From a virus: a stretch of DNA of 26,212 bases. Position 1 is the first letter of the stretch. Each line of letters starts with the position of its first letter. Shown piece after piece: positions 9,557-24,399 of this stretch. Made by a program: the position numbers and the translations under genes. The notes beneath the pieces are model-generated. The model was not told the origin of the DNA. It ran no database searches and was given only the letters and a program-made list of their open reading frames with translations. The DNA is taken from positions 1-26,212 of the IMG/VR virus record IMGVR_UViG_3300048592_000112. One strand, 5' to 3'.

Positions 9557-9773
9557 TCCCTTCATCGACACACGCAACCTCTTGGCGGCGTGTGTCGTCG
9601 ATTTCGCGTTGCACCTTGCCTCGCGACCCAACCCGCTGATTATCGGGCGAGACTACGCGCCCGACAAGCTCGCGGAAGAGTTCAAGATTTGGGCTGCCAG
9701 CCGACGCTTCAACACGAGCGAGAGGGACGGGGCAGCGTGGGAAAACTTATGGCAAAGCGGACTGCTTCAATGA
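9549..9773 (+). CDS. Small protein of unknown function
   Basis: A 74-residue protein starting at ATG 9549, overlapping the kinase gene by 8 nt and overlapping the exonuclease gene by ATGA. It has a helical, hydrophobic first half (RNLLAACVVDFALHLAS) and a charged second half (KLAEEFKIWAASRR). I see no known motif. Coupling on both sides and spacing typical of the operon make it a real gene rather than chance. Confidence 0.65.
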   Translation: MNDPFIDTRNLLAACVVDFALHLASRPNPLIIGRDYAPDKLAEEFKIWAASRRFNTSERDGAAWENLWQSGLLQ

Positions 9774-10387
9774 AAACATACTCAGCGTTACCCCACCTGA
9801 ACGGCAACCTGTTGTGCGCTGTGGACATCGAGACAACGGGGAACCGCCCGCGATACCACGAACCGATTCAGATTGCGATTGTCCCGTTGAACTCGGACCT
9901 GCGACCCCTGAGAGGCGTGCGGGCCTTCTACACGGACATCCAGCCGCTTCATATCGAGCGGGCCGATGGGCGGGCTACTGCCGTTCACCAGCTACCGCTT
10001 GAGGAACTGGCCATCCACGCGCCGAGCCGCGACAAGGTTGTGGACATGCTCGTGGAATGGTTCGAGGGTCTCGACCTTCCGTTCGAGAAGCAGTTGGTCC
10101 CGCTCGCCCATAATTGGGCGTTCGAGGCGAGCTTCTTCAAGGCGTGGTGGGGAGTGCCGTTGCTGGAGAAGCTCTTCCACCCCCACCCGCGAGACGCGAT
10201 GCAACTGGCCTTGGCCATGAACGACCGATCCGTATTCAAGGGAGAGAAGGCACCGTTCAATCGGGTCGGCCTTGGCTCGCTCTGCAACGTGTTCAACATC
10301 ATTAACCCGAAGGCTCACGACGCCTACCACGACTGCCTCGCGGAAGCGGAAGTGTATCGCTGCCTGCTGCTCATGGATCAGTTCTAA
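9770..10387 (+). CDS. DnaQ-like 3'-5' exonuclease (DEDD family)
   Basis: A 205-residue exonuclease of the RNase T/DnaQ superfamily, likely for proofreading or DNA processing. Exo I motif is AVDIETTG (D19, E21). The Exo II region is PLAHNWAFEASFF, where the usual Asp of HNxxFD is replaced by Glu. Exo III is HDAYHDCLAEAEVY, with the His five residues before the last Asp, as in DEDDh enzymes. No polymerase domain is attached. ATG 9770 overlaps the preceding stop (ATGA). An in-frame ATG 21 nt earlier (9749) is possible, but the overlap favours this start. Its stop shares one base with the next start (TAATG). Confidence 0.87.
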   Translation: MKTYSALPHLNGNLLCAVDIETTGNRPRYHEPIQIAIVPLNSDLRPLRGVRAFYTDIQPLHIERADGRATAVHQLPLEELAIHAPSRDKVVDMLVEWFEGLDLPFEKQLVPLAHNWAFEASFFKAWWGVPLLEKLFHPHPRDAMQLALAMNDRSVFKGEKAPFNRVGLGSLCNVFNIINPKAHDAYHDCLAEAEVYRCLLLMDQF

Positions 10388-10857
10388 TGGATGACCTACC
10401 GTGCCCTGCGAGACTCGAAGCAAAGGACGAAGACGGAAAGGTCTGGTTCTACCTCTGCAATCACCCGGATGCCGGGCCGTACAAGAATCAAGTCAAGCGG
10501 GCGATGTGCGAAGTGTGCCCTGTGCGCACCAACTCGGAGGAACCGACTTTCCGGGCCGAGGTACTGCCGGATGGCACCATCGTCTATGAGCGGAAGCCGG
10601 GCGATTGGGAGCCGCCACGCGACCACAAAGGATACCGCCGCAAGTCGAATGACCCTAAGAGCGACGACGCTTGGGTGTTTATCCCCGACTGGCCGCAGTG
10701 TCCGAACCGTTCCCTGAACACCCAAAGAAAAACGGGCTGCGGCTGCTTGCTGGTCGAGATGACCTGCAAGGATCGTCGTAGCCCGTCGTTCGGAAAGGAA
10801 GTCGAGTTGGAAACGTGCCAGGAATGCACGCTTATTCGTCGCAGCAACGGCCCATGA
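10387..10857 (+). CDS. Cys-rich protein with two related Cys modules
   Basis: A 156-residue protein rich in cysteine. Two similar modules are visible: N-terminal (C6, R9, C24, C41-x2-C44, R47) and C-terminal (C105, R108, C118/C120, C127, C144-x2-C147, R151). Each begins with C-P-x-R and ends with a CxxC followed by R, so each probably binds a metal such as zinc. The middle has PPRDHKGYRR and WVFIPDWPQC. The C-terminal module is clearly related to the gene at 11520-11996. No membrane segment or signal peptide is seen. It overlaps the exonuclease stop by one base (TAATG) and overlaps the opposite-strand gene tail-to-tail by 26 nt. Function unknown. Confidence 0.75.
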   Translation: MDDLPCPARLEAKDEDGKVWFYLCNHPDAGPYKNQVKRAMCEVCPVRTNSEEPTFRAEVLPDGTIVYERKPGDWEPPRDHKGYRRKSNDPKSDDAWVFIPDWPQCPNRSLNTQRKTGCGCLLVEMTCKDRRSPSFGKEVELETCQECTLIRRSNGP

Positions 10858-11521
10858 TCCGAAGAAATTCAGAATTGAACTCGTTGCATCGCAGCCGCAG
10901 ATCAAAGAAGTGAGCCGGGCCGAACTCAGGTCCGTCGTCCGTGAACTTCGCACCGCCCATGCCCGATGTATCGGCATTGCAAACTACGCGACCATCGCAG
11001 TCGATGGTGCCAAACGAGCCGCCGCCGGGGAACACCGACATGGCAAACTCGCCGGTGTACTTGTTGCGGCGAATGAGTTGATAGCTGCGACCGTCGTATC
11101 CCGGCTCGCCCACTTGCAATCCGTTGATGACCGGTGCGAAGTTCCACCGGCAGTCGCCGAACCCGTTGACGTTCAGATCGCACGATGGAGTGAAAGTGAT
11201 GACCGTGAAGGTCTGACCAAACCCGCACAGAAGTTCCTCGAATGGATCACAGCAGTCACACCACGCTTCGGCCAGAGCTTCGTTGATCTCGTCGATGACC
11301 GACTGCTTCCAAAGTTCAGGCATGTCGCTAAACGTGATCTCAGGACACGTTTGGATCAGCTTGTCGCGCACCTCTTGGATGTCGGCCTTGGACCAGCGGT
11401 GCTTTTCCTCGACGTGGGGCATGGGGTCGATGGGACCGCCGCAGCCGTCGGGCGGGTTCTGCAAAACCTCGTTGACCGCATCCAGCAACTCGTTCCAATC
11501 ACTTCGTTTATAAGCAGCCAT
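10832..11521 (-). CDS. Unknown protein, nested opposite to two plus-strand relatives
   Basis: A 229-residue protein with natural composition: an acidic, helical first half (WSKADIQEVRDKLIQTC; MPELWKQSVIDEINEALAEA) and a C-terminal half rich in Gly and Cys (FPGGGSFGTIDCDGRVVC). I do not recognise it; it may be a virion or tail-tip accessory. The other-strand reading frame is an A/V/R/D-rich shadow, so this strand is preferred. Its ATG (11519-11521) and the plus-strand ATG (11520-11522) overlap in one CATG. Only AGGG about 10 nt upstream could serve as a ribosome site. It lies beyond the two terminator hairpins of the structural operon, so it needs readthrough or its own promoter inside the neighbouring gene. 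Confidence 0.7.
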   Translation of the reverse strand: MAAYKRSDWNELLDAVNEVLQNPPDGCGGPIDPMPHVEEKHRWSKADIQEVRDKLIQTCPEITFSDMPELWKQSVIDEINEALAEAWCDCCDPFEELLCGFGQTFTVITFTPSCDLNVNGFGDCRWNFAPVINGLQVGEPGYDGRSYQLIRRNKYTGEFAMSVFPGGGSFGTIDCDGRVVCNADTSGMGGAKFTDDGPEFGPAHFFDLRLRCNEFNSEFLRIMGRCCDE

Positions 11522-11996
11522 GAAAGATAGACCCTGTAAGAATTGCCCCGATCAGACGATAGCTTCGCAGAAGCCGCAGGTGCCCTTCGACATCACGAAG
11601 CTCGGCCTTCCGCAAGTCGTGTACGTCGGCTTCAACGGCTTAGCCGACTTGCAGCACACGCTGCCGATCTACGACGGCGTTCAGCGTCAGTTCCAACGCC
11701 CGGTGTTCGCGCCGGACGGGAGCCTTGAGTACCCGCGATTGTACGGCGACACGACGCCGCCCAACGACATCGACGGATACGAGCGAGACGGCGACAACCC
11801 CTGGAAGTTTCACCCGATCTGGCCCGACTGCGTGCTGCGGCTGCAAGGGACCAAGTTGAAACCCAACGGCTGCATCGACGTGGTCATGGTTTGCAACAAT
11901 CCCGAAACAACGACCTTCGGCAAGAAGGTGACGTGCGAGACGTGCGCTGGTTGTCTTGTAAAAAGACCCCGCCTCGCGAACGAGGCGGGGCTATGA
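11520..11996 (+). CDS. Cys-rich protein related to the 10387-10857 gene
   Basis: A 158-residue protein starting CKNC near its N-terminus. Its second half matches the other Cys-rich protein: a GY-x-R segment, PW-x-F-x-P-x-WP-x-C, then GC, a single C, FGKKV, and ETCAGCLVKR against FGKEVELETCQECTLIRR. The first half differs. It is probably a metal-binding small phage protein of unknown role. The start codon overlaps the opposite gene's start and lacks a clear ribosome site, so the start is uncertain. The last codons lie inside a terminator hairpin. It may be the distal gene of the right early operon, with the opposite gene in between. Confidence 0.75.
   Translation: MKDRPCKNCPDQTIASQKPQVPFDITKLGLPQVVYVGFNGLADLQHTLPIYDGVQRQFQRPVFAPDGSLEYPRLYGDTTPPNDIDGYERDGDNPWKFHPIWPDCVLRLQGTKLKPNGCIDVVMVCNNPETTTFGKKVTCETCAGCLVKRPRLANEAGL
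11967..11990 (-). terminator. Intrinsic terminator, second of a tandem pair
   Basis: The arms CCCCGCCTCG (11967-11976) and CGAGGCGGGG (11981-11990) are a perfect 10-bp stem with a 4-nt loop. On the minus strand it is followed by TCTTTTTA, a good T-tract, so it should stop transcripts from the structural operon. It also sits in the last codons of the plus-strand gene, where no T-run follows. Confidence 0.82.
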
Positions 11997-12000
11997 AAAA

Positions 12001-12016
12001 CTAGGCTCTCGCCTAG
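12001..12016 (-). terminator. Small intrinsic terminator, first of a tandem pair
   Basis: CTAGGC and GCCTAG form a 6-bp stem with a 4-nt loop. On the minus strand it is followed directly by TTTTTC. It overlaps the stop codon of the SPFH-like gene (12013-12015). Together with the stronger hairpin at 11967-11990 it gives two consecutive stops for the structural operon. Confidence 0.6.
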
Positions 12017-12570
12017 ATTATTGGAATTCGGTGGTTCGGACCCGCCTCATTCCCGATCAGCTTGTAGGTCTTGCAGACCGAGAAGTCGGTGATCGCACAC
12101 CGTTGAACGTGGACGCCAAACTGACGCAGCCGCTTGCGAGTGGTTTGCGTCAGTTTCTTTTCTTGGGCCGTGATGTCCGTCAGCAAATCATCCAGCTTGC
12201 TCCGGGTGATCGTCTCGACTACGGCAGCCTGGGTGATGTCGCTGATCGTGCATTCCGTGTCCCAATTCTTCTTGCCGATGGCTTCGACCACGTCCCTGAT
12301 CCGGTAAACGACCATCGTGCCGATGACGATTTGCTGCCGATCCGCGGTCATTAAAACCTGGGTCGGCAGGTTGATCGTCTGTCGGGCGGTGACGATAACC
12401 TCGATCTCCGTGGTGAGCGGCCAGTAGACGTGACATCCGGGCGGCATCTCGGACACGTAGCTGCCCATGCGCCACCGCACGCCCGAATGGGTCGCGCGGA
12501 TTATCACCAGCCTCGGAATGATTCGTCCGAGAGCTTCGATGATCTGACCTAACCAAGCAAAGGCTTCCAT
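12013..12570 (-). CDS. SPFH/prohibitin (Band 7) family protein
   Basis: A 185-residue protein whose nearly whole length is one SPFH domain. Residues 4-23 (FAWLGQIIEALGRIIPRLVI) are hydrophobic and amphipathic and could insert in the membrane. Then come GVRWRMG and PPGCHVYWPL, matching the G-V-x-x-x-G...PGxH...P start of SPFH domains; ARQTINLPTQVLMTAD (the R-x-I-L-P...T-x-D strand); VVYRIRDVVEAI; and a RQFGVHVQRCAITDFSV end. The usual long coiled coil and second half of stomatins or HflK/C are missing, so it is short for the family. It is the last gene of the tail operon, one base after the hub gene stop (TAATATG), and is followed by two terminators. ATG 12570 was chosen over an overlapping start at 12612. 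Confidence 0.85.
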   Translation of the reverse strand: MEAFAWLGQIIEALGRIIPRLVIIRATHSGVRWRMGSYVSEMPPGCHVYWPLTTEIEVIVTARQTINLPTQVLMTADRQQIVIGTMVVYRIRDVVEAIGKKNWDTECTISDITQAAVVETITRSKLDDLLTDITAQEKKLTQTTRKRLRQFGVHVQRCAITDFSVCKTYKLIGNEAGPNHRIPII

Positions 12571-12571
12571 A

Positions 12572-15316
12572 TTAGTCCTGCAAGAAAGCAGTTCCGGCAC
12601 CCCACTTGCCACCCTCGTCGTCGAACTCGAAGTCGAACTCCGAATCGTTCGATCCGTCGCTGAATTTCGCGTCCGTGTTGAGGAACAAGGCGTCGTCGTC
12701 GATCTTGCGAATGATCGTATCCAAGAAGGCCGAGACGCCTTCGTTGTCCGAGTCGATGATTCGCGTCTTCCGAATGTCGATGGTGATGCCGCCCGAAGGC
12801 AGCGGCGGAACGACGGGAGCCGGAAGCGGGTCCACGTAGTTCAGCGTGAGATCAGGGTCGGGATTCGGCGTGTTGTCGATCTCGGCGAACACGTTCTCCG
12901 CTATGACCGTCTGAGCCGTGAAGCCCACATCGCCAGGGTTCGGATCGCCACGGTCCGTCCGGTCGCGGAACACGATATTAGGTCCGCCAACGAACACCGT
13001 GTTGCCAGCGGTGATCGTGGACGTATCGCCCACCGGCAGATTGCCGCTCGCATTCGCTCCGATGCCGCCCCCACCCGCGTTCCCGGCTGAAATCTCAGCC
13101 GCCGTCGGAAAGGACGCACCGACGTTCTTCGGCCAGAAGAAGATGTAAGGCTCGGTTGTCCCCGCCTTCACCGGCGTCAGACAAACGAAGTTCACTGTCT
13201 GGTCGTTCGAGTCGTAGCTGGCCGTCTCGACAATCGCCTTCACATCATCGTCGGCTACAATGCCGTGATGCTGGAAGTTGATCGTGTCGAACGTCTCAAG
13301 GTTCAGCTTGTTCAGGAACGCTTTGAACTTGATCTTCTTCCAAGTTTTCGACAGGCGAATCAACCAGAACGTCGCCGCCTTGAGGACAATGTCGGGCTGG
13401 TTGTAGATGTAGAAGTCGAACTCGCGTTCCTTCGTTCCGTACTTGTTGACGTTGTGGCGTAGGATGATCTTCTCCGGTTCCTCACCGTTTCCGTCCGCCC
13501 AACTCAGCCGCCACGTCGCGACGATCTTCGTGACAAGGTCTTCGGTTGGCGTTAGCTCGACCGAGATGCTCTTGTGCTGGATGTCCGAAGCGGTGATGTC
13601 AGAGTCGGAAGTCGGTTCTTCGGGGAGGTACTTGAGGTAGAACTTTCCGTTGCTAATCCAGATCGCGCATCGCGCTTGGAAGGCGATCTCGCGGAGAACC
13701 TCAATCGTGTTCTTCCGGTCGAGGATCGGGAAGTTCGCCGGGAAGGGGTTCACCTTCGACTGTACGGCGGCAAAACTGGCGGCGTCGGTCGTTAGGTCCG
13801 TCCACCGCTGGATGATGTACTCCATGATCTCCACGATGTTCGGCCCGACTGTGGACTCGAACGTGACGTAGATGTCATCGCTCCACCCCTGATCGACAAT
13901 CGTGCTCAGCGGCTTCCGCAGCACGACTTGAACTGCCGTAATCGACCCGTAAGTCTGCGTCTCGACTTCGTAGAGTTCGGTCGGCACGTTGACCAACCGC
14001 CGCTCGCCGAAGAAGTCCTTGTACGCTTTGACCGCGAGAACCTCACCCGGCGTGATCGACACGATGTAGGTGATCGGTTCGTCGCTGGCCATAACCACCC
14101 GCGACCCCGGCTCGGCCCAAAAGTGCTGAGCCACTTGGTTCACCGAGGGCCGGGACTTGGTCGGCGTCTCGCACAGGATGAATCCGTGCCGCCGAATCTG
14201 ACAGTTGTTCAGGAAGTCGCCGGTGCCGCACGGCACATCCATCGCGAAGTCAAAGGTTTGGGCCGGTGGCGCTTCTTCGCAGGACGTGTCAGCGACGCCA
14301 TCGAATGCGTCTTGGGCCTTCTCGTCGTTGTCGGGATGTTGCCGGTCGCTGATCGTGAACTCGTCTTCGTGCATGATCCCCGTAAACAGCCCACCGTTGA
14401 TGTTCAACTGGATCGGGGTGTCTTGTGGGAAATCCTCGCCGCCCAGGATGCGGACCGGGTTGCAGCCGACGTTTCCTTCCTCCGTTACCTTGCCAGCGCG
14501 GGCTGACGTGGCGCACGCTTGTTGGGACGATGCCGACGCCAGCGTCTCGGCGATCTGCTGCCGAAGGTCGTTTGCTTGTTCAAGCAGCGCGCTCGATCTT
14601 TCCGAGTCGTAATTCTGCCACGCCGCCCCGCAGATGTTGAGGAAGCTGATCTGTGTGGACATCATCGCGAGGCTGATGCCCAGGCTGCAATTCTCCGCTC
14701 CGAGCGGAACTTGGTTGTGCAGGTCCGCCCCACTGAGAATCCCAATGCCGCAGAGCGTGGTGCCCGACACCGCCTTGTTGATTTGGAGGGCAGGCACGTC
14801 CAAGCACTTCCCGAAGATGATTGGCCAGGGTTTGCCGACCAAGTCCTTCGGGATGAACGGGAACTGGCCTTCCTCCGCGCTGAATCCGATCTCTTTGTCC
14901 TCTAACTGGGAGAGGACGGAGAAGGTGACGGTTCGCTCGGCTTCGGACCAGACGACGGGGCTGGTGAGCTTCCCGGTGAACAGCAGGAACTTGTCGCTAA
15001 GGTCCAGCCCGTCGAAGTGCTGATATACAGAGACATTCCGTTGGTGGACATCTTGGGTGTCGAGGATGTGCTTGATGCTTCCATCAGTGTCGTCCAGGGT
15101 GATCGTGATTTCTTGCGACGAGTTGTTGTTCAACACGTCGATGACGTTATCCATCTCGCTCACGTCGAGAATTTTACCGGGGATGCCGTCAACGTCGCGG
15201 TCGGCGTAGGGCACCGCGCCGCCGCTGCCACCCCAATCAACCTCTATGATGAAGATAGGCTCGGTGCCGAGCTTCTCAGCCAGCTTGGCCAACCCGTTCG
15301 CCGATATTTGCCTCAT
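12572..15316 (-). CDS. Tail-tip hub / baseplate-like structural protein
   Basis: A 914-residue protein that probably forms the tail tip or baseplate hub at the end of the tail tube. The N-terminal 150 residues have a hub-like beta domain (FLLFTGKLTSPVVWSEAERT, TFSVLSQLED). The C-terminal half has a run typical of hub proteins: IEVLREIAFQARCAIWISNG, FWLIRLSKTWKKIKFKA, LETFDTINFQHHG, and VNFVCLTPV. A middle region (about residues 265-395) carries several cysteines. The last 150 residues are Gly/Asp/Pro-rich, with an acidic end. I cannot match it to one named family. It overlaps the preceding gene by ATGA and is followed within two bases by the SPFH-like gene. Confidence 0.75.
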   Translation of the reverse strand: MRQISANGLAKLAEKLGTEPIFIIEVDWGGSGGAVPYADRDVDGIPGKILDVSEMDNVIDVLNNNSSQEITITLDDTDGSIKHILDTQDVHQRNVSVYQHFDGLDLSDKFLLFTGKLTSPVVWSEAERTVTFSVLSQLEDKEIGFSAEEGQFPFIPKDLVGKPWPIIFGKCLDVPALQINKAVSGTTLCGIGILSGADLHNQVPLGAENCSLGISLAMMSTQISFLNICGAAWQNYDSERSSALLEQANDLRQQIAETLASASSQQACATSARAGKVTEEGNVGCNPVRILGGEDFPQDTPIQLNINGGLFTGIMHEDEFTISDRQHPDNDEKAQDAFDGVADTSCEEAPPAQTFDFAMDVPCGTGDFLNNCQIRRHGFILCETPTKSRPSVNQVAQHFWAEPGSRVVMASDEPITYIVSITPGEVLAVKAYKDFFGERRLVNVPTELYEVETQTYGSITAVQVVLRKPLSTIVDQGWSDDIYVTFESTVGPNIVEIMEYIIQRWTDLTTDAASFAAVQSKVNPFPANFPILDRKNTIEVLREIAFQARCAIWISNGKFYLKYLPEEPTSDSDITASDIQHKSISVELTPTEDLVTKIVATWRLSWADGNGEEPEKIILRHNVNKYGTKEREFDFYIYNQPDIVLKAATFWLIRLSKTWKKIKFKAFLNKLNLETFDTINFQHHGIVADDDVKAIVETASYDSNDQTVNFVCLTPVKAGTTEPYIFFWPKNVGASFPTAAEISAGNAGGGGIGANASGNLPVGDTSTITAGNTVFVGGPNIVFRDRTDRGDPNPGDVGFTAQTVIAENVFAEIDNTPNPDPDLTLNYVDPLPAPVVPPLPSGGITIDIRKTRIIDSDNEGVSAFLDTIIRKIDDDALFLNTDAKFSDGSNDSEFDFEFDDEGGKWGAGTAFLQD

Positions 15317-15711
15317 TGCTCTACTCCCTCGAACTCAAGCGTGATCGTCTGAGTCTCGCCCCTCGGCCAGCCCTGAATCGCCGGGCCAGCCTTGCGGTCT
15401 GAGGTAAACTCAAACGGGTTGTTGGTGAAGTGACCGATCCACACTCGGTCGTTGTGGTCCACGACTTGGACCTTGGATGCGAAGTAGGAGAGAAGAAAGG
15501 CTCGGAGTTCCAAGCCTTTGTTCCTCGTTAGCTGGAAGGTCCATGTCAGCTTCCGCCGCCCACCCTTCGTCTTGACGTAGGTGTACAGCGTGCCGTCCAC
15601 TGCCCGTTTCGGCGATACGAAATCCGCGAGGGATTCCGTGTCGCTGAACTCCGGGTTCGGTAGGAGCGACGTAGTTTGCAAGCCGGGGTAGGGGGCGGAA
15701 ATCTCAAACAT
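15313..15711 (-). CDS. Small tail protein related to a Dit-like domain
   Basis: A 132-residue, beta-rich protein. Its order LTWTFQLTRNKGLELRAFLL, then VVDHNDRVWIGHF, then ITLEFEGVE is the same as the C-terminal domain of the repeat-rich protein at 17620-19530 (LLLTFSVLKSEEKNALLAF, LIDWENRAWRGVI, FEFEGT). It resembles distal-tail/tip proteins of siphophages that replace or reorganise a bound ring at the tail end. It is coupled to the hub gene by ATGA, which fits a tip complex. The start at ATG 15711 has only a weak ribosome site. Confidence 0.7.
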   Translation of the reverse strand: MFEISAPYPGLQTTSLLPNPEFSDTESLADFVSPKRAVDGTLYTYVKTKGGRRKLTWTFQLTRNKGLELRAFLLSYFASKVQVVDHNDRVWIGHFTNNPFEFTSDRKAGPAIQGWPRGETQTITLEFEGVEQ

Positions 15712-16020: not shown

Positions 16021-17620
16021 CCAAAAATTCCTCAGCGTTGCGGCGAGCGAGATACTCGCCGTAGGTTTCGATGTGGGTAAACGTCAACTCTTGGGGCGAA
16101 CCGGTGATCGGTTCGCTGTTGACGAGCTTTTGCAGAAGCCGCTCCATCCGGGTCCGATTGCTCCAGCGGATTTTGCCGTCGTGTTCTTCACGAGCGACAC
16201 GGTCCCGCATCCCGTCAGCGTGGTCGTAAAACCATGCAGGGGCGTCCCCGGCGTGTTCAGAGATTTGAGTCGCGGTCCCGGCTTCGTCGATTACGAAGAC
16301 TTCCACGGTGCCGGTCACATCCTTCGCGAAGATGCCCGCAGTGTTCGATCCCATCGTGGGATTACCTGCGTTATCGCCGAGAGTGATGACCTTCGTTGCC
16401 GTCCCAGTCGGCAACGTCGTGGTGCCAACCAAGATGACCCCGTTGAAGTAGTTCGGGGCGGTTCCGGCCATGTAGCAGTTCCATTTGTTGGAACCGCTGC
16501 TGACGTTCCCATAGAAGGCGTAGGCGTTGTTCCCGGCAGTAAAGTCAGCTTGGTAGTAACCAAAGATACTCGTCAGCGTTCCGCCGCCGTTGTTCAGCCC
16601 TGCATCCGAGAAGTAGTTGTAGCCATTGGTGAGACTGCCAGCACCGAGGTTCCCGGTGTTGGAGTAGCTTCCCGCCGCGCCCGTAACTGTTCCCGATGCT
16701 CCGGTGACGAACGTAGTGTTGAGGAACCCGCGAAGGCCGACTGAGTTTGTGTGGTTGAACCCGGCTTGGTCGATCCGAACCGACGCCGCGACACCGCGAA
16801 TAACCTGCGCGTTGTTCGCAGTGAGTTCGGCAACGGTTGTGAATTGCGCGATGTTGGCCGTCGAAGCCGGGTCGATGATTTCTGCTTCGACGTTGACGGT
16901 CGCGTTCGATGATACGTTCGCCAAACCGACTGCGATTCGATCAAACTTCGGCGAACCTTCCGTGGACAAATCTTGCGGAGCGACGGGGTATGCTGTACCG
17001 CCTTCATTGATCGCGTACAGCGTGACCGTTCCGGCAACATCCTTGGCGTAAATGCAGGCCGTGTTGCTTCCAGGCGTGGGATCACCGGCGTTGTCACCGA
17101 GCGAAAGAACCTTGGTCGCAGTGCCGGTCGGTTGAACCGCCGAGCCGATTTGCAGCCCGGTTGGAGCGTGCTGCGTGACGAGCGTACCATTGCAGTACGT
17201 TTGGAGAACGTGCGTGCTATGGACTAAGTACCAACCTTCGATACCAGTGAACGAGGTATCGTTAATCAGGCCGACACCACCTGAATCGTCATAGAAACAG
17301 ATTGGCCGCCCGGCAGCACCGCCGCCAACGCGACCAAGGATGCCCGACACACCTGAACCCGCAATGTCGAGCGGGTAAGCGGGTTCGATGTTCACGCCGA
17401 TGCCAGTGTCAGCGACGAGGCTTCCAGCGGTGATGCGGAAGTCGCCTGCGTCCCAGTCCGCGGTCAATGGCTGAGAGCCATTGACGAGAACCACGAACGC
17501 GAACAACTGCGCAAGCGTGGAGTAATAGCTGCTGCCCGCCCCGCCCGCCGCCGCTTGCAAGGCGACAAGGTCGGCCAGATCGGGCGTCGGGTCATTAGGC
17601 AATTCGTTAAACTGCGGCAT
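16013..17620 (-). CDS. Tail fibre-like protein with internal duplication
   Basis: A 535-residue protein, rich in Gly, Ala, Thr, Asn and Ser and low in charge, as in trimeric phage fibres that contact the host surface. An N-terminal head (about 1-60) is followed by beta-repeat sequence, and two copies of a 47-residue unit (residues 164-210 and 404-450) start PTGTATKV. The last 85 residues are charged and helical (MRDRVAREEHDGKIRWSNRT; QKLVNSEPITG), perhaps a trimerisation or assembly part. The start overlaps the preceding gene's stop by one base (TAATG). The fibre call is from composition and position; no receptor-binding fold was recognised. Confidence 0.7.
   Translation of the reverse strand: MPQFNELPNDPTPDLADLVALQAAAGGAGSSYYSTLAQLFAFVVLVNGSQPLTADWDAGDFRITAGSLVADTGIGVNIEPAYPLDIAGSGVSGILGRVGGGAAGRPICFYDDSGGVGLINDTSFTGIEGWYLVHSTHVLQTYCNGTLVTQHAPTGLQIGSAVQPTGTATKVLSLGDNAGDPTPGSNTACIYAKDVAGTVTLYAINEGGTAYPVAPQDLSTEGSPKFDRIAVGLANVSSNATVNVEAEIIDPASTANIAQFTTVAELTANNAQVIRGVAASVRIDQAGFNHTNSVGLRGFLNTTFVTGASGTVTGAAGSYSNTGNLGAGSLTNGYNYFSDAGLNNGGGTLTSIFGYYQADFTAGNNAYAFYGNVSSGSNKWNCYMAGTAPNYFNGVILVGTTTLPTGTATKVITLGDNAGNPTMGSNTAGIFAKDVTGTVEVFVIDEAGTATQISEHAGDAPAWFYDHADGMRDRVAREEHDGKIRWSNRTRMERLLQKLVNSEPITGSPQELTFTHIETYGEYLARRNAEEFLDG
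16271..16411 (-). repeat. Fibre internal repeat, second copy
   Basis: Encodes residues 404-450 of the fibre (PTGTATKVITLGDNAGNPT at its start). Compared with the copy at 16991-17131, I count 34 of 47 residues identical. Confidence 0.8.
16991..17131 (-). repeat. Fibre internal repeat, first copy
   Basis: Encodes residues 164-210 of the fibre (PTGTATKVLSLGDNAGDPT at its start). It pairs with the copy at 16271-16411. Both begin PTGTATK and contain a LGDNAG turn and a GSNTA segment. Confidence 0.8.
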
Positions 17621-19530
17621 TAGCCTGCCTCCAAAGGTTCGCCGTCGCCGGTCAGAAGGATTTCGCCATCGCCGGTGCGTAACGGTTGATTCAGAAAGAT
17701 GCTGTCAGCAACAGAACCGAGGTTTATCGCCGAACTGAGAGCGTAGCTTCGGGTAGCGACCCGGCTCGCCATCGAGCCAATGGCCAGCGACGAGCTTGCA
17801 GCAGGCGTAATTTGACCGGTGCTTTCCCTCGTACCCTCGAACTCAAAGCTCGCGGTGAACGAGTTTCGTCGATCCTCGACAACCGGGTCTTGAGGGTTGA
17901 CGATGACGCCACGCCACGCTCGGTTCTCCCAGTCGATCAGCCGAATCGGCTTACCGAGCGTCGCCCGCATGAAGGCGAGCAAAGCGTTCTTCTCTTCGCT
18001 CTTGAGAACCGAGAAGGTCAGAAGCAGCGTCTCGACCTTGGGCCAGATCGGGTCGGCGTAGATAACGAGCGTCCCGCCTCGCGTCTCTCGGTTGATCCGG
18101 TCGAAGGCCAGCCGGTCGATGTCGCCCAGGTTGGGCGACCGAAGCGTGACGACTTCCGTTGGTGCGCCTGTGGCCGGGTACAGCAGGCGGAAGCCGGTAA
18201 GCTCGGATGCGACCGGGAGGCTCGTCGAAGGCGGCTCAGGCGCGTCTGGGTCCGTGGACGCACCGACGAACGGCGAATACTCGCAAGTAACAGCCGACCG
18301 CTCGATAACGAACCGCACGGCCTGTTGAACGGCCAGGGCGCTTTCCAGGGCCATCGCCGCCCGGTTAATCGCCACCGTGGCGGTCTGCGACAACTCAAGC
18401 GTGTTTTCCGGCTGGTACTGTGAAACCTGTGCCGACGCCATCTGCGACAGCGACAGCGTGTTGCTCGCTTCCTGCGGGTTGCTGATCCGGGCTTCGTCGC
18501 TGAGCGACAGCGTCGATTCAGCGTCCGCCGTGATCCCGTCTACGCGGCTGAGAGACTTGTGAGCCGTCTGCGTCCACTGGATGAAGTCGTGGGCGCTCGG
18601 ATTGGTTAGAAGGGCTGCACTCGCCTCGCCGGTCAAACCGGTCTGCACCGTGACGAATTCGAGCGTGTCGGGGTCGAAGACTTCTTCGTACTCGACAAGG
18701 GCGCTCTCCGCATCGGCGTAGATCGGCTGGCGGACATCGACCGCTTGGGCCAGCGTGAGGGTGCTGGTGATGCGCTGCGTGGTGTTGCCAACCGCCAACT
18801 GAGTCAGCGTGATCGTGTTCTCGGCCAGCTTCGCGACAATAGCCGTCGCTTCGCTGGTCATAACCAGCGTGCTCGTGGCGTCGCGGTACTTGTCCGGCGT
18901 CGAGTCTACGGACTGGACGATTACCAGTTCCGACTCGGCCAGCACCGTCAAAGGCCCGCTGGCGACCGCAATTTGCGTTAGGACCAGCTCGCTCTCGGCG
19001 TCTACCTCAAACGTCCGTGGGACGTAGGCTTCATCGCTGAGTTCGATTACGTTCGACGCAAAACGCGGAAGCGGCCCACGTTGCTCGGCGGATTGCGTAA
19101 GGACCAGCGTGTTCTCCGCAGGCCCGAACTTCTGATTGTGGGCGACGGTCTGCGTGAACGTCAGCACCGACTCCGCATCCTCGCGGTGGGCCGCCCGCAA
19201 CTCACCGGTCGCCTCGTGCGACAGTTCAAGTTCGCTGATGTCCGAGTTATTCAGAGCACCCGTCGTACCAACGGCGCTCTGCGTCAGTGCGATGTTGTTT
19301 TCAGCGACAGCGTTGAATTGAACAAGCTGAGCCGTCGCCTCGTGATCCAGTGTTAGTTGGTTCTCAGCGTTAAGAAACGGATTGAATGCCTCCGCATCTT
19401 GCACGAGAGAGATCGTATTGGTAGCGGCGACTTCAAGACCGCCTCCGCCGCCCGACTCCGTCGCTGCGCCCAGCCGAAGCGACAAGCCGAGTACCGAGTC
19501 CGACGTGCCTAGAACACTCGTCCAAGCCAT
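17620..19530 (-). CDS. Repeat-rich tail protein ending in a Dit-like domain
   Basis: A 636-residue protein. After a Gly-rich start (residues 1-34), about residues 35-410 hold a degenerate repeat of 18-23 residues with the core AEN/AES-x-L-x-L-x-Q-x-A (examples AENTLVLTQSA, AESTLSLSDEA, ASNTLSLSQMA); I count about 17 units, one of them expanded. The C-terminal part (about residues 440-600) matches the free 132-residue tail protein at 15313-15711. A short tail ends in GDGEILLTGDGEPLEAG. The repeats may build an elongated beta structure along or below the tail, and the Dit-like domain may dock it at the tail end. An AAGGTG-type ribosome site lies before ATG 19530. Confidence 0.75.
   Translation of the reverse strand: MAWTSVLGTSDSVLGLSLRLGAATESGGGGGLEVAATNTISLVQDAEAFNPFLNAENQLTLDHEATAQLVQFNAVAENNIALTQSAVGTTGALNNSDISELELSHEATGELRAAHREDAESVLTFTQTVAHNQKFGPAENTLVLTQSAEQRGPLPRFASNVIELSDEAYVPRTFEVDAESELVLTQIAVASGPLTVLAESELVIVQSVDSTPDKYRDATSTLVMTSEATAIVAKLAENTITLTQLAVGNTTQRITSTLTLAQAVDVRQPIYADAESALVEYEEVFDPDTLEFVTVQTGLTGEASAALLTNPSAHDFIQWTQTAHKSLSRVDGITADAESTLSLSDEARISNPQEASNTLSLSQMASAQVSQYQPENTLELSQTATVAINRAAMALESALAVQQAVRFVIERSAVTCEYSPFVGASTDPDAPEPPSTSLPVASELTGFRLLYPATGAPTEVVTLRSPNLGDIDRLAFDRINRETRGGTLVIYADPIWPKVETLLLTFSVLKSEEKNALLAFMRATLGKPIRLIDWENRAWRGVIVNPQDPVVEDRRNSFTASFEFEGTRESTGQITPAASSSLAIGSMASRVATRSYALSSAINLGSVADSIFLNQPLRTGDGEILLTGDGEPLEAG
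18300..19430 (-). repeat. About 17 tandem degenerate repeat units in a tail protein
   Basis: Each unit spells roughly A-E/S-N/S-x-L-x-L-x-Q/D-x-A then 6-12 variable residues. The Leu and Ala positions and the Gln/Asp at the same place are shared while the rest varies. Copies 13 and 17 are irregular. No long perfect DNA repeat is seen, so the units are old or kept by protein selection. Confidence 0.75.
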
Positions 19531-20682: not shown

Positions 20683-23600
20683 CTACCGGCGTCGAGGTAA
20701 ACGAGAAGTGCCCCTGCGGACCTCGCGTTCGAGAACGCGAGCAATCGCACGGCCAGACGCTTGACCCTTAGCAGCGTCCGAACTGCCGCCCTGCACGGTG
20801 ACGTTGATGTCGCCGATAGAGATGGGTCCGCCGTGCTGCCGGTAGACCGGCTGCTGGCCTGCGTTGATCGCTTGAATCTGCGAGAAGAACCGCTGCGCAG
20901 ACTTCGGGTTGATGAATGCCTCGCCGGGGCGAGCCATTACGGGAATGGTGTCCATACCGCGAGCCGCGCCGCCGTTCGCGAAGTAACGAACGAATCCGCC
21001 CTTCGCGAATGAGTTCTGCGAACTGCCAGTAGCGGGTGCATTGAACGTCGCCTGGGACGCTCTGATCCAATCCTGTGCCCCTCTCGACAATGCGTTACCG
21101 CCAGTGACGGCGTTGTTCACAATCGTCGTGGACGCAGTAGCCGCATTGGTCAAGCCGGTCGCGCCAGCGCTCAAGGCGTCGCCGCCCTGCTTCAACTGCC
21201 CGCTAAAGCCGCTCGATTGCAGCTTTTGCTGGATCGCGTCGAGTTGCTGCAATCGCTGTTGCAACTCACCAACTAAGGGAGGCGTTGACGCCTGCTGTTG
21301 GAGGTTCGCGATCTGTTGCAGTTGTGCGAACGCCTGGGTCAGATTGACTTGGCTGCTGTTGAAGGCCAAACGGTCGTTGACGTTTGCACCGAGCAAACCA
21401 AACAGGCTGTCGATTTCCGTCCGCAGCTTCGCCACGTCCTTTTGGCTAATCTGCGATTGCTGACCAATCGCTTTGACCCGCTCGACTGACGAGTTGAACG
21501 CCTGCCGAGCAGCATCGGCCCTGTCGCCTTGGAAGACGTTTCGGGCAGACGCCAATCGCTCGATTTCCTGCAACGCAACTTGCAAGTTCTGGCGAGCAGT
21601 TTGTTGTTCTTCGCCACCGATGGTCGCTTTGTTAAGCTGTTGCCGAATCTCGGCAGCGTCGGCCTTGGCCTTGTCCAAGTAGTCAAACGCCTGTTCCGGC
21701 GTCTCAATCTTGACGTTGAACAGCCGCTCCAACTCGGCGATGTTGACGCCGGTGATCTTCAAGAAGTCGAGCTTGAAGTTCGCGAACGCCTGATCCAGAT
21801 GCGCACGCAGCCGCTTGTCTTCACCTTCCAGCGTGAATCGCAATCGGATGGGGTCTTGCTTTAACGTCTGCTCGAACTCGTTGATGAAGTCCGTCAGACC
21901 GAGCGACCGCAACTGCTGCGGATCAACGAGCTTCGACAGGTCCACCAGTCGTTGCGTGGCTTGCTGGCGAACCTGAGCGCGACGGTCGAGCGCGGCTTGG
22001 TCGAAGGGCTTGCCCGTAGACGTGTCGAAGATTCCAGTGTTGTCCTGAATGATCTTCGCTTGTTCACGGACTTGGTCCAGAAGACTCTTCTGAACCAGCC
22101 GGGTCCGAATCAAACCCGCTTCCCGCTTCTTCTCCGTTTCCAGCAGCGTCCGCTCCGCGCGAACTTGGTCGTCGAGGATGTTCTTCTGCTGTTGAAACGC
22201 CCTGGCGATTGCCGTTTTGTCGCCGGTTCGCTGCGCCAGCGACAGCGCTTCCGCCGCCGCCCGCTCTGCCTCTCGCCGCTGCTCCAACGCAATATTGATT
22301 TGCTGTTGGTTCCCCCCGGCGTTGGCCAGCGTTTGGGCGGCTTCTCGCGACAGGTCAGCGGCCCGCTTCGTCAAAGCGAAAGCCTTTTGGGCGTCGCTCA
22401 GATTCGCGGTCCGCTGTTGGAACTCGATGTCTTCCTGCTGGCCCCGGATCGACCGAATCCGATTCTCAGCAGCGTCTTGAGCTTGCTTGCTATCGGCAAT
22501 CGCCCGTTGCTGAGCTTCGGCCAGTTTGTCGTAAGCCAGGATGATCTCGTTGACCGACGACTTGGTGGCTTTCACCATCCCGTCGTTGGCGCTCTTGGCT
22601 ACCTCACGCAACGTGAGGTAGTTGTTGCTGATTTGGCGGGTCGCTTTGCGAGCCGATTGGACTCGATTGTCGTCAGCTTTGGCCGCCTCGTCGGCGGCTT
22701 TCTCCAACGACTCCGACAGTTCTTCGATCCTCTTCTTGTTGGCTTCAATCGAGTCACGGACCGCCTTCGTCGTCTTCTCCAACAATTTGCGGTCGAGGAA
22801 TTCGCCAATCGACTTTCCTGCACCGAAGGCGAGGGGGACACCCGCAAGAGCAATAAGCGAAGACGAAAGTGCAAGGCCAGCGAACGACGCGCCCTTCAAC
22901 GCTACGGTCAATGCCACTGCCGAAGCAGTGAACCCGGCGATAGCCGGACCGGCTGACTGAATGCCCGCGACGACGTTGTCAACACCGCCAAGGGTGTCGC
23001 TGAGTTGAGCCGTCACACGAAGCAACGACTGCCCCAGGTCCACCGTAAAGGCGTTCTTGAGCTTGTTGATCTGCGCGGTAACTTTCTCAGCGTCCGTCGC
23101 CGTCGCGATCAAAAACTTCTCTTCCGCGAAGTTCTCGCTGGCGACCCGCATCTCGTCGATGTTGGCGGCCAGGGTTTTCAGTTCGTCGCCGGTCAAAGCC
23201 GCGACGCCGTTCAAACCACGGATGTTTGGGAACAAGGCGGCCATCGCCGAGCTTGAACCCTTAGTGCTTGCCGACAGTTCACGGAGCACGCCGGACAGGC
23301 CGAGCGTCTTGATCGCCGACTCGCCGGACTCGAAGCCAAGCCCACGGAGAGCTTTCTTCATCGAGTCCGACGGCTTAATCAACGCCGTGATGATGTTTCG
23401 GAACTGGGTCAAAGTTTCCGGGGTATTGCTACCACGGACCGAGATCGCGGCCAACGCCGCACCCACTTCTTCCAGTTCAACGCCCGCCTCAGCCGCCGCA
23501 GGACCAACACGACCAAACGCATTGGAGAGTTGGTCCGCCGTGATACGGCCCAAGTCAATCGTCTTAAAGAAGACCGACGAGACTCGGTCCGTATCCTCCA

Positions 23601-24399
23601 CGCCGAGGTTGTACGATTTGAGCGCACCGGAGAGCAAGTCAACCGAGTCGGCCAACTGGCTGTTGGTGCTCTTGGCGAACTTGGCCGCCTCAGCGGTGAA
23701 CTTCAAACTCTCGCCTGTGTCACCAACTTGGTTACTGATGGTCTGATACAGACCAGCCGCCGCATCAAGCAGCGGAATGTTGAACTCGTCCGAAAGAGCA
23801 CGAACCTCGCTGCTTAGCTGGCTGAGCGACCGACCACTATCGTCAATCGTGCGGATCAACGCGAGTTGTCGTTGGAATTCAATCGCTTCCGCAGCGGTCG
23901 CCTTAAAGCTGTTTCGGATCGTGCTCAACGCACGGACAATCGCCTGGGTGAAGACCACCCGCGACAGCAATTCCAGGCTCGTCGTGAAGCGACCCGATTC
24001 GCGAGTCGTCAAGGCCAGGGCCGACCGAGCACGCCCGGCACCCGTAGCCACATTCTGTCCCGCACCCTGGCCAGCCGCGCCAGCATTCGCAAGAGCGGTT
24101 GATGCTTGCTGAGCGGCAGTCGTTATAGCGTTCGTGCTGTTCGCTGCATTTTGCGACGAGGTAGATACCCCGCCCAACCCGGTCGTCAGTATGCCCAAAG
24201 CGTTCGCCGCATTCGTGGCGTTGCGAGCAAGACGGCTGAGAGTAGTTGCAGTGGCCCGACCGCCAGTGTTGAACGCTTTGAGGCTCGCGACGTTCTGTTG
24301 CAGTCGCGCGTCGAATTTCGCAAGAGCGCCGTCCAGCAAATTCAGGGTTTGAATCGCCTGTGCGGCGTCGAACCCTAAGACTTGTGTGATTTCCGCCAT
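20683..24399 (-). CDS. Phage tail tape measure protein (TP901 type)
   Basis: A 1238-residue tape measure, which sets tail length and is ejected into the cell during infection. About residues 140-400 match the PhageMin_Tail/TP901 core: IEFQRQLALIRTIDDSGRSL, then ADSVDLLSGALKSYN, then RITADQLSNAFGRVGPAAAEAGVEL with ISVRGSNTPET. A hydrophobic stretch (about 480-540) could cross the membrane, followed by long helical coiled-coil sequence rich in Gln, Ala, Lys and Glu. The C-terminus has PVMARPGEAFIN, a common tape-measure end motif, and a basic tail. By the rule of about 0.15 nm per residue, the tail would be near 185 nm. It overlaps the 169-residue gene by one base (TAATG). Confidence 0.93.
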   Translation of the reverse strand: MAEITQVLGFDAAQAIQTLNLLDGALAKFDARLQQNVASLKAFNTGGRATATTLSRLARNATNAANALGILTTGLGGVSTSSQNAANSTNAITTAAQQASTALANAGAAGQGAGQNVATGAGRARSALALTTRESGRFTTSLELLSRVVFTQAIVRALSTIRNSFKATAAEAIEFQRQLALIRTIDDSGRSLSQLSSEVRALSDEFNIPLLDAAAGLYQTISNQVGDTGESLKFTAEAAKFAKSTNSQLADSVDLLSGALKSYNLGVEDTDRVSSVFFKTIDLGRITADQLSNAFGRVGPAAAEAGVELEEVGAALAAISVRGSNTPETLTQFRNIITALIKPSDSMKKALRGLGFESGESAIKTLGLSGVLRELSASTKGSSSAMAALFPNIRGLNGVAALTGDELKTLAANIDEMRVASENFAEEKFLIATATDAEKVTAQINKLKNAFTVDLGQSLLRVTAQLSDTLGGVDNVVAGIQSAGPAIAGFTASAVALTVALKGASFAGLALSSSLIALAGVPLAFGAGKSIGEFLDRKLLEKTTKAVRDSIEANKKRIEELSESLEKAADEAAKADDNRVQSARKATRQISNNYLTLREVAKSANDGMVKATKSSVNEIILAYDKLAEAQQRAIADSKQAQDAAENRIRSIRGQQEDIEFQQRTANLSDAQKAFALTKRAADLSREAAQTLANAGGNQQQINIALEQRREAERAAAEALSLAQRTGDKTAIARAFQQQKNILDDQVRAERTLLETEKKREAGLIRTRLVQKSLLDQVREQAKIIQDNTGIFDTSTGKPFDQAALDRRAQVRQQATQRLVDLSKLVDPQQLRSLGLTDFINEFEQTLKQDPIRLRFTLEGEDKRLRAHLDQAFANFKLDFLKITGVNIAELERLFNVKIETPEQAFDYLDKAKADAAEIRQQLNKATIGGEEQQTARQNLQVALQEIERLASARNVFQGDRADAARQAFNSSVERVKAIGQQSQISQKDVAKLRTEIDSLFGLLGANVNDRLAFNSSQVNLTQAFAQLQQIANLQQQASTPPLVGELQQRLQQLDAIQQKLQSSGFSGQLKQGGDALSAGATGLTNAATASTTIVNNAVTGGNALSRGAQDWIRASQATFNAPATGSSQNSFAKGGFVRYFANGGAARGMDTIPVMARPGEAFINPKSAQRFFSQIQAINAGQQPVYRQHGGPISIGDINVTVQGGSSDAAKGQASGRAIARVLEREVRRGTSRLPRRR

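Follow-up and report, generated by a model that had tools for sequence, protein, structure and literature searches.

A minimal SPFH-domain gene at the end of the tail operon in a family of mostly uncultured phages, and its alternation with a ClpP-class protease

SPFH proteins in cells and in phages

Membrane proteases are regulated or scaffolded by SPFH proteins, an example being HflKC with FtsH. Within cells they are also tied to proteases of the ClpP class, with SPFH proteins and the ClpP-class NfeD1b being operon partners (PMC2636767). Phages carry SPFH genes as well, which have been noted for some 20 years without a known role. They are found in the T4-like phages 44RR, Aeh1 and RB43 (PMC1524935), in Bruynoghevirus (PMC8540360), in DLP3 (PMC7326821) and in AH14b (PMC4936722), and in Vi01-like phages peptides of an SPFH lipoprotein have been found in virions by mass spectrometry (PMC10892097). 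A role in lysogeny has merely been suggested in papers on SPFH-bearing phages, and a 2026 paper states that it is still unclear why a phage genome should carry one (PMC13239085).

The DNA analysed here, referred to as the window, comprises 26,212 nucleotides, a virus record of 26 kb that stands isolated. Whilst SPFH genes in phages are already known, a minimal form that closes a tail operon and its alternation with ClpP appear new, neither having been found in the literature searched, the coverage of which was incomplete. The minimal SPFH gene appears to be ancestral, is under selection and has a fixed place across a phage family, in which a ClpP-class protease seems to have replaced it several times. 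A natural SPFH domain that lacks the coiled coil also lets the action of the domain itself be asked about.

The SPFH protein of the window

The 185-aa protein holds a nearly complete Band_7 domain, with PF01145 matching residues 23-169 in a Pfam profile search (profile positions 2-151 of 176, E 8.8e-19) and scoring 68.7 bits where the curated cut-off is 23.6. An AF2 model, a monomer prediction made with 64 homologues in the alignment, has a pLDDT of 93.9 and a pTM of 0.82, and places a helix at residues 5-15 followed by the SPFH1 and SPFH2 fold up to residue 165. Foldseek matches this model to human stomatin (E 1e-14), and both Foldseek and VIA group it with stomatin, prohibitin, QmcA and HflK/C, the best VIA match being the stomatin of P. 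horikoshii (8gn9, Z 18.3, rmsd 0.9 over 104 residues). A profile search against solved structures gave stomatin (4e-10), QmcA (7e-10) and HflK (1e-4).

Table 1. Features of the tail operon end and its surroundings in the window
Feature	Position	Strand	Size	Remarks
SPFH (Band 7) gene	12013..12570	(-)	185 aa	ATG at 12570, stop 12013-12015
Parts of SPFH protein				amphipathic helix at residues 5-15, SPFH domain at about 20-165, short disordered tail
Tail hub gene	12572..15316	(-)	914 aa	predicted fold like lambda J/T5 pb3
Small tail gene	15313..15711	(-)		directly upstream of hub, conserved in relatives
Repeat-rich tail protein	17620..19530	(-)		conserved in relatives
Tape measure protein	20683..24399	(-)	1238 aa	operon shared with SPFH; PhageMin_Tail E 1.9e-25
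First terminator-like hairpin	12001..12016	(-)	6 bp stem	TTTTT; overlaps SPFH stop codon
Second, strong terminator-like hairpin	11966..11991	(-)	11 bp stem	T-run
DEDDh exonuclease (RNase_T)	9590..10387	(+)		replication block, convergent; in relatives it usually borders the slot

The N-terminal helix has a hydrophobic moment of 0.54-0.64, and no 19-residue segment of the N-terminus is hydrophobic enough for a clear transmembrane helix (KD19 maximum 1.0-1.8). The chain stops about 20 residues past the SPFH fold, which leaves no room for a long coiled coil, and the coiled-coil wall of known cages is absent. A sequence-only reading of this DNA had described just such a protein, with a nearly complete SPFH domain, an amphipathic N-terminus and no long coiled coil, and each of these features is borne out, the fold with high confidence by structure prediction. 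As judged from the sequences the gene is under strong purifying selection, with dN/dS of 0.01-0.16 among close homologues. No sign of membership of a known anti-phage defence system was seen, as the PADLOC defence profiles gave no match to the protein at E 0.01.

The phage protein is like stomatin and QmcA (SPFH1) in its SPFH1 and SPFH2 fold, in giving its closest sequence-profile matches to them and, it may be, in a hydrophobic N-terminus close to the membrane. It differs from them in that it has neither the coiled coil nor the C-terminal region, there is no adjoining NfeD gene, and the N-terminus is an amphipathic helix rather than the long hydrophobic hairpin or transmembrane segment of stomatin and QmcA. 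The likeness to HflK and HflC is at the level of the domain, with NCBIfam matches to hflK (2e-11) and hflC (2e-7) that fall far below the equivalog cut-offs (43.6 against 159.4 bits and 30.1 against 134.4 bits); HflK and HflC are paired and have a transmembrane anchor and a long coiled coil, whereas the phage protein is unpaired and has no stretch of transmembrane length and no long coiled coil, and the data speak against its membership of HflK/C. Another phage-encoded SPFH group is phrog_200, from T4-like (44RR, Aeh1, RB43) and Vi01-like phages (PMC1524935, PMC10892097, PMC13239085), but the profile of that group spans 379 positions and bears the name lipoprotein. The protein of the window matches it weakly (2.7e-6, positions 103-254) and by eye has no cysteine in its N-terminal 45 residues. 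The best viral fold match is to a minimal SPFH protein of 173 aa, the 'HflK' A0A6J7WFI0 of an uncultured member of the Caudovirales (BFVD), with a TM of 0.77-0.82 although the two share only 19% identity.

Position at the end of the tail operon

The gene before SPFH had been read as a tail hub, and its model does resemble lambda J, T5 pb3 and the GTA hub (with E as low as 2e-13 in Foldseek and Z as high as 16 in VIA); the confidence of the model is moderate (pLDDT 64), so the fold match backs the label of hub and not the details. The gap between the genes, previously given as two bases, is one base, with the hub ending at 12572 and the SPFH ATG starting from 12570. Two terminators had also been placed after SPFH and both hairpins are present. 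That the gene closes the tail operon holds in so far as it is the last one before the terminators, but another gene on the minus strand (10832-11521) lies past both of them. Facing the tail operon is a convergent replication block of primase/DUF5906, dNMP kinase and DEDDh exonuclease. No promoter-like site of its own was found for the SPFH gene, in what is a weak test.

Distribution and inheritance among relatives

Searches with the single SPFH sequence gave 0 matches among 50,697 phage records and none in viral contigs. Relatives were reached by way of the hub and a second tail protein (24 relatives) and afterwards with an SPFH alignment, which found 70 viral contigs and one Planctomycetota prophage. 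A search with a hub alignment gave about 80 hub loci, a set that was not selected for SPFH. The SPFH carriers are a family of mostly uncultured bacterial viruses. The earlier view that a minimal SPFH gene is unusual in this place stands when known phages are considered, whereas within this family the gene is old and frequent.

The pairing of hub and SPFH is conserved, as in almost every one of the ~70 loci the two share a strand with SPFH downstream, exceptions to this order being one locus with SPFH just upstream of the hub (L158) and one with an inverted hub (L072). In 20 of 69 loci no more than 30 bp (0-30 bp) part the two, in 48 of the 69 they are separated by gaps or by further small genes, and the next annotated gene after SPFH is convergent in 52 of 65. 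SPFH identities track those of the hub, exonuclease and primase (Spearman 0.53-0.57, hub 0.53; Mantel 0/500), that is the backbone of the phage, and it follows that SPFH has mostly been inherited with the phage. In one relative with 128 kb (record G012) a second SPFH protein of 299 aa is encoded in addition to that of the slot (L033 1225-2121), differing in an apparent transmembrane segment and a long coiled-coil region.

The position after the hub is referred to here as the slot, and it may hold nothing, SPFH, ClpP, a zincin, PhoH or small ORFs, with several genes together in some slots. A census of 81 hub loci, which include some near-duplicates, found SPFH in 34, ClpP in 10, a zincin in four and none of these in 25, with eight cut off. 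Two of the 34 SPFH loci hold decayed remnants (L002 and L139). On the hub tree SPFH is found on both sides of the midpoint root and to explain its distribution no fewer than 21 changes must be placed on supported branches, from which the gene is probably old but dispensable. That it is absent or decayed in many relatives points to a late protein of accessory nature and speaks against a core part of the tail.

ClpP and zincin proteins in the same slot

The closest hub relatives of the window have a ClpP-type protein of 187-192 aa, encoded 4-7 bases after the hub, in the slot. Slot ClpPs match Pfam with E to 1e-36, their catalytic triad of Ser, His and Asp is conserved, and they are found at four separate places on the hub tree. 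They nevertheless form one group in 90% of bootstraps, suggesting that a single gene type moved into the slot repeatedly and spread among these phages. In L021 the order is hub-PhoH-cys15-ClpP against hub-cys15-SPFH in its relatives. The PhoH ATPase there (14181-14903) sits between hub and ClpP, and in the Rheinheimera phage Barba18A the CLP_protease and phoH genes are adjacent (PMC6715854).

SPFH and ClpP have not been found together: ClpP was absent from 37 of 37 SPFH records searched, and Band_7 from 18 of 18 records with ClpP or zincin. All four independent pairs place ClpP opposite SPFH, although with four pairs the test is underpowered (sign test, p 0.125). In cells NfeD1b-SPFH1b/FloA operons couple SPFH to a ClpP-class protease (PMC2636767), whereas in these phages the two are alternatives, and the slot ClpP lacks the membrane and C-terminal NfeD domains of NfeD1b. 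The slot ClpP resembles ClpP-type head proteases. MCP, scaffold, portal and terminase (named from sequence and gene order) belong to a set of head and tail genes that two SPFH and two ClpP phages have in common, and the proposal that the swap reflects a head maturation protease is weakened, as SPFH phages with these homologous genes have no ClpP. A small further group has an SprT-like zincin in the slot, with Pfam values of 1e-4 to 6e-3 that lie below the cut-off; the HExxH proteins with this weak match in L117 (6312-6710) and L118 (3148-3588) are examples.

Host and lifestyle

The only match in a genome contig is to a Planctomycetota MAG, where phage genes take up roughly 11-79 kb on a contig of 444 kb. 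By eye the genes at both ends look bacterial, which makes this region a prophage. The family probably infects planctomycetes, the evidence for the host being one MAG that is possibly incomplete. Resolvase-type recombinases are found in seven of 35 phage records, and at least part of the family may thus be temperate; together this suggests siphophages that are at least partly temperate.

Besides the prophage gene the MAG has a flotillin-like SPFH protein and an operon (L231 1337-5524) of NfeD1b (785 aa, with a ClpP-class N-domain), NfeD (192 aa) and FloA. It encodes two FtsH genes, and HflK/C was not found in it. Across 392 Planctomycetota genomes SPFH of the slot type was found at E 1e-25 nowhere but in the prophage, and recent uptake from a Planctomycetota chromosome was therefore rejected. 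A phage-encoded partner was also sought, and neither FtsH nor NfeD was found for SPFH, NfeD being absent from the 35 phage records searched.

Possible function of the SPFH protein

The SPFH gene may be an accessory gene of ancestral origin with which the late (tail) operon ends, and its product would be made late, together with the tail proteins. It would be a monotopic protein on the cytoplasmic face of the inner membrane, held there by its amphipathic N-terminal helix, and would assemble on the membrane without the coiled coil that builds tall cages. There it could engage host SPFH/NfeD (FloA-NfeD1b) or FtsH complexes and so alter membrane-associated proteolysis, with the outcome that phage proteins are protected, or the turnover of host membrane proteins is changed, during assembly or lysis. 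In other lineages the ClpP-class protease in the slot may meet the same need by a different route. A late membrane protein that acts on host SPFH/NfeD/FtsH proteolysis is put forward tentatively as the best reading, one that is quite possible though short of probable. It is suggested because SPFH proteins scaffold membrane proteases, the phage alternative is of the ClpP class and the only known host has an SPFH-NfeD1b system. The stomatin/QmcA-like fold, the N-terminal helix, the ~70 loci downstream of the hub, the selection and the co-variation with the backbone are counted in its favour, as are the mutual exclusion of SPFH and ClpP with its intact triad and the NfeD1b-NfeD-FloA operon and two FtsH genes of the host. 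Counted against it are that the phages themselves encode neither NfeD nor FtsH, that the ClpP is like head proteases and that the host is a single MAG. The exclusion is itself weakened by there being four independent pairs, and gene swapping between homologous flanks could explain it, whilst the 25 of 81 hub loci with neither gene imply that the need is not universal.

Lambda lom and HK97 gp15-type genes are precedents for accessory genes in a position next to tail genes, and the main rival explanation, judged somewhat unlikely, makes SPFH a moron of the host surface or of superinfection exclusion: sitting in the membrane, and expressed either by the prophage or late in infection, it would keep the DNA of related phages from entering. 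Its place right after a lambda-J-like hub, the predicted membrane association, the frequent loss with remnants in L002 and L139, at least one prophage with bacterial flanks and the recombinases would all suit this. Exclusion genes diversify fast, however, unlike this strongly constrained and mostly backbone-inherited gene; the weak test for a promoter of its own also tells against it, and one would not expect an exclusion slot to swap its gene for a ClpP or zincin protease. In another rival explanation the slot is neutral, with SPFH and ClpP as unrelated cargo exchanged by recombination between homologous flanks and their alternation uninformative on function. The variable contents of the slot and the single clade of slot ClpPs across hub lineages agree with that, yet slots can carry several genes and SPFH and ClpP are never together in the records searched. 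Neutral exchange is considered improbable.

A factor for lysis timing or envelope integrity, in which SPFH stabilises or organises the inner membrane late and so takes part in holin control, is hardly more credible than neutral cargo: the end of the late operon and a predicted membrane-organising fold fit it, but lysis genes are not adjacent, the only candidate hydrolase seen by eye (in G013) being ~29 kb away, and replacement by ClpP fits poorly. Least probable of all is a virion component or a tail assembly chaperone at the hub. The loci with SPFH close behind the hub and the lipoprotein of Vi01-like virions (PMC10892097) speak for it, but many relatives with the entire tail and head set have no SPFH, and genes or gaps commonly intervene after the hub. 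A structural tail role is thus unlikely, and a core structural part of the tail was rejected as the primary explanation because SPFH is repeatedly absent, as in ClpP phages with the same head and tail genes and in the 25 of 81 hub loci with no slot match. The idea in the sequence-only reading that it might be part of the tail tip does not sit with its repeated loss and replacement on the hub tree. Of the other roles named in that reading, action on the host membrane or its proteases and a block to superinfection are left standing by the data.

The proposal of late action on host membrane proteolysis could be taken further, with the slot as a dedicated membrane-proteolysis locus in which an SPFH scaffold and a ClpP-class protease are functional alternatives, each being half of the host SPFH-NfeD1b (FloA-type) system. 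This extended form is doubtful, but if true it would offer a genetic handle on the role of SPFH proteins in phages. What the alternation of SPFH and ClpP yields is a concrete hypothesis, namely that the target is host membrane proteolysis.

Other genes of the region

Some relatives (L120, L123) have the gene at 10832-11521 immediately behind the hub and on the tail strand, and in others it occupies the opposite strand, its placement looking as if it flips between the two operons. Small Cys-rich proteins are encoded at 10387-10857 and 11520-11996 of the window, for which Pfam gave nothing; they belong to a family that is multi-copy in these phages (cys15 in L015, L079 and others) and occur on either side of the operon border. 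Imperfect copies of 'TLxLSQxA' recur many times in the repeat-rich tail protein, which has its C-terminal domain in common with the small tail gene upstream of the hub, and the gene that matches it in one relative (L014 9218-21361) is an open frame of ~4,000 codons.
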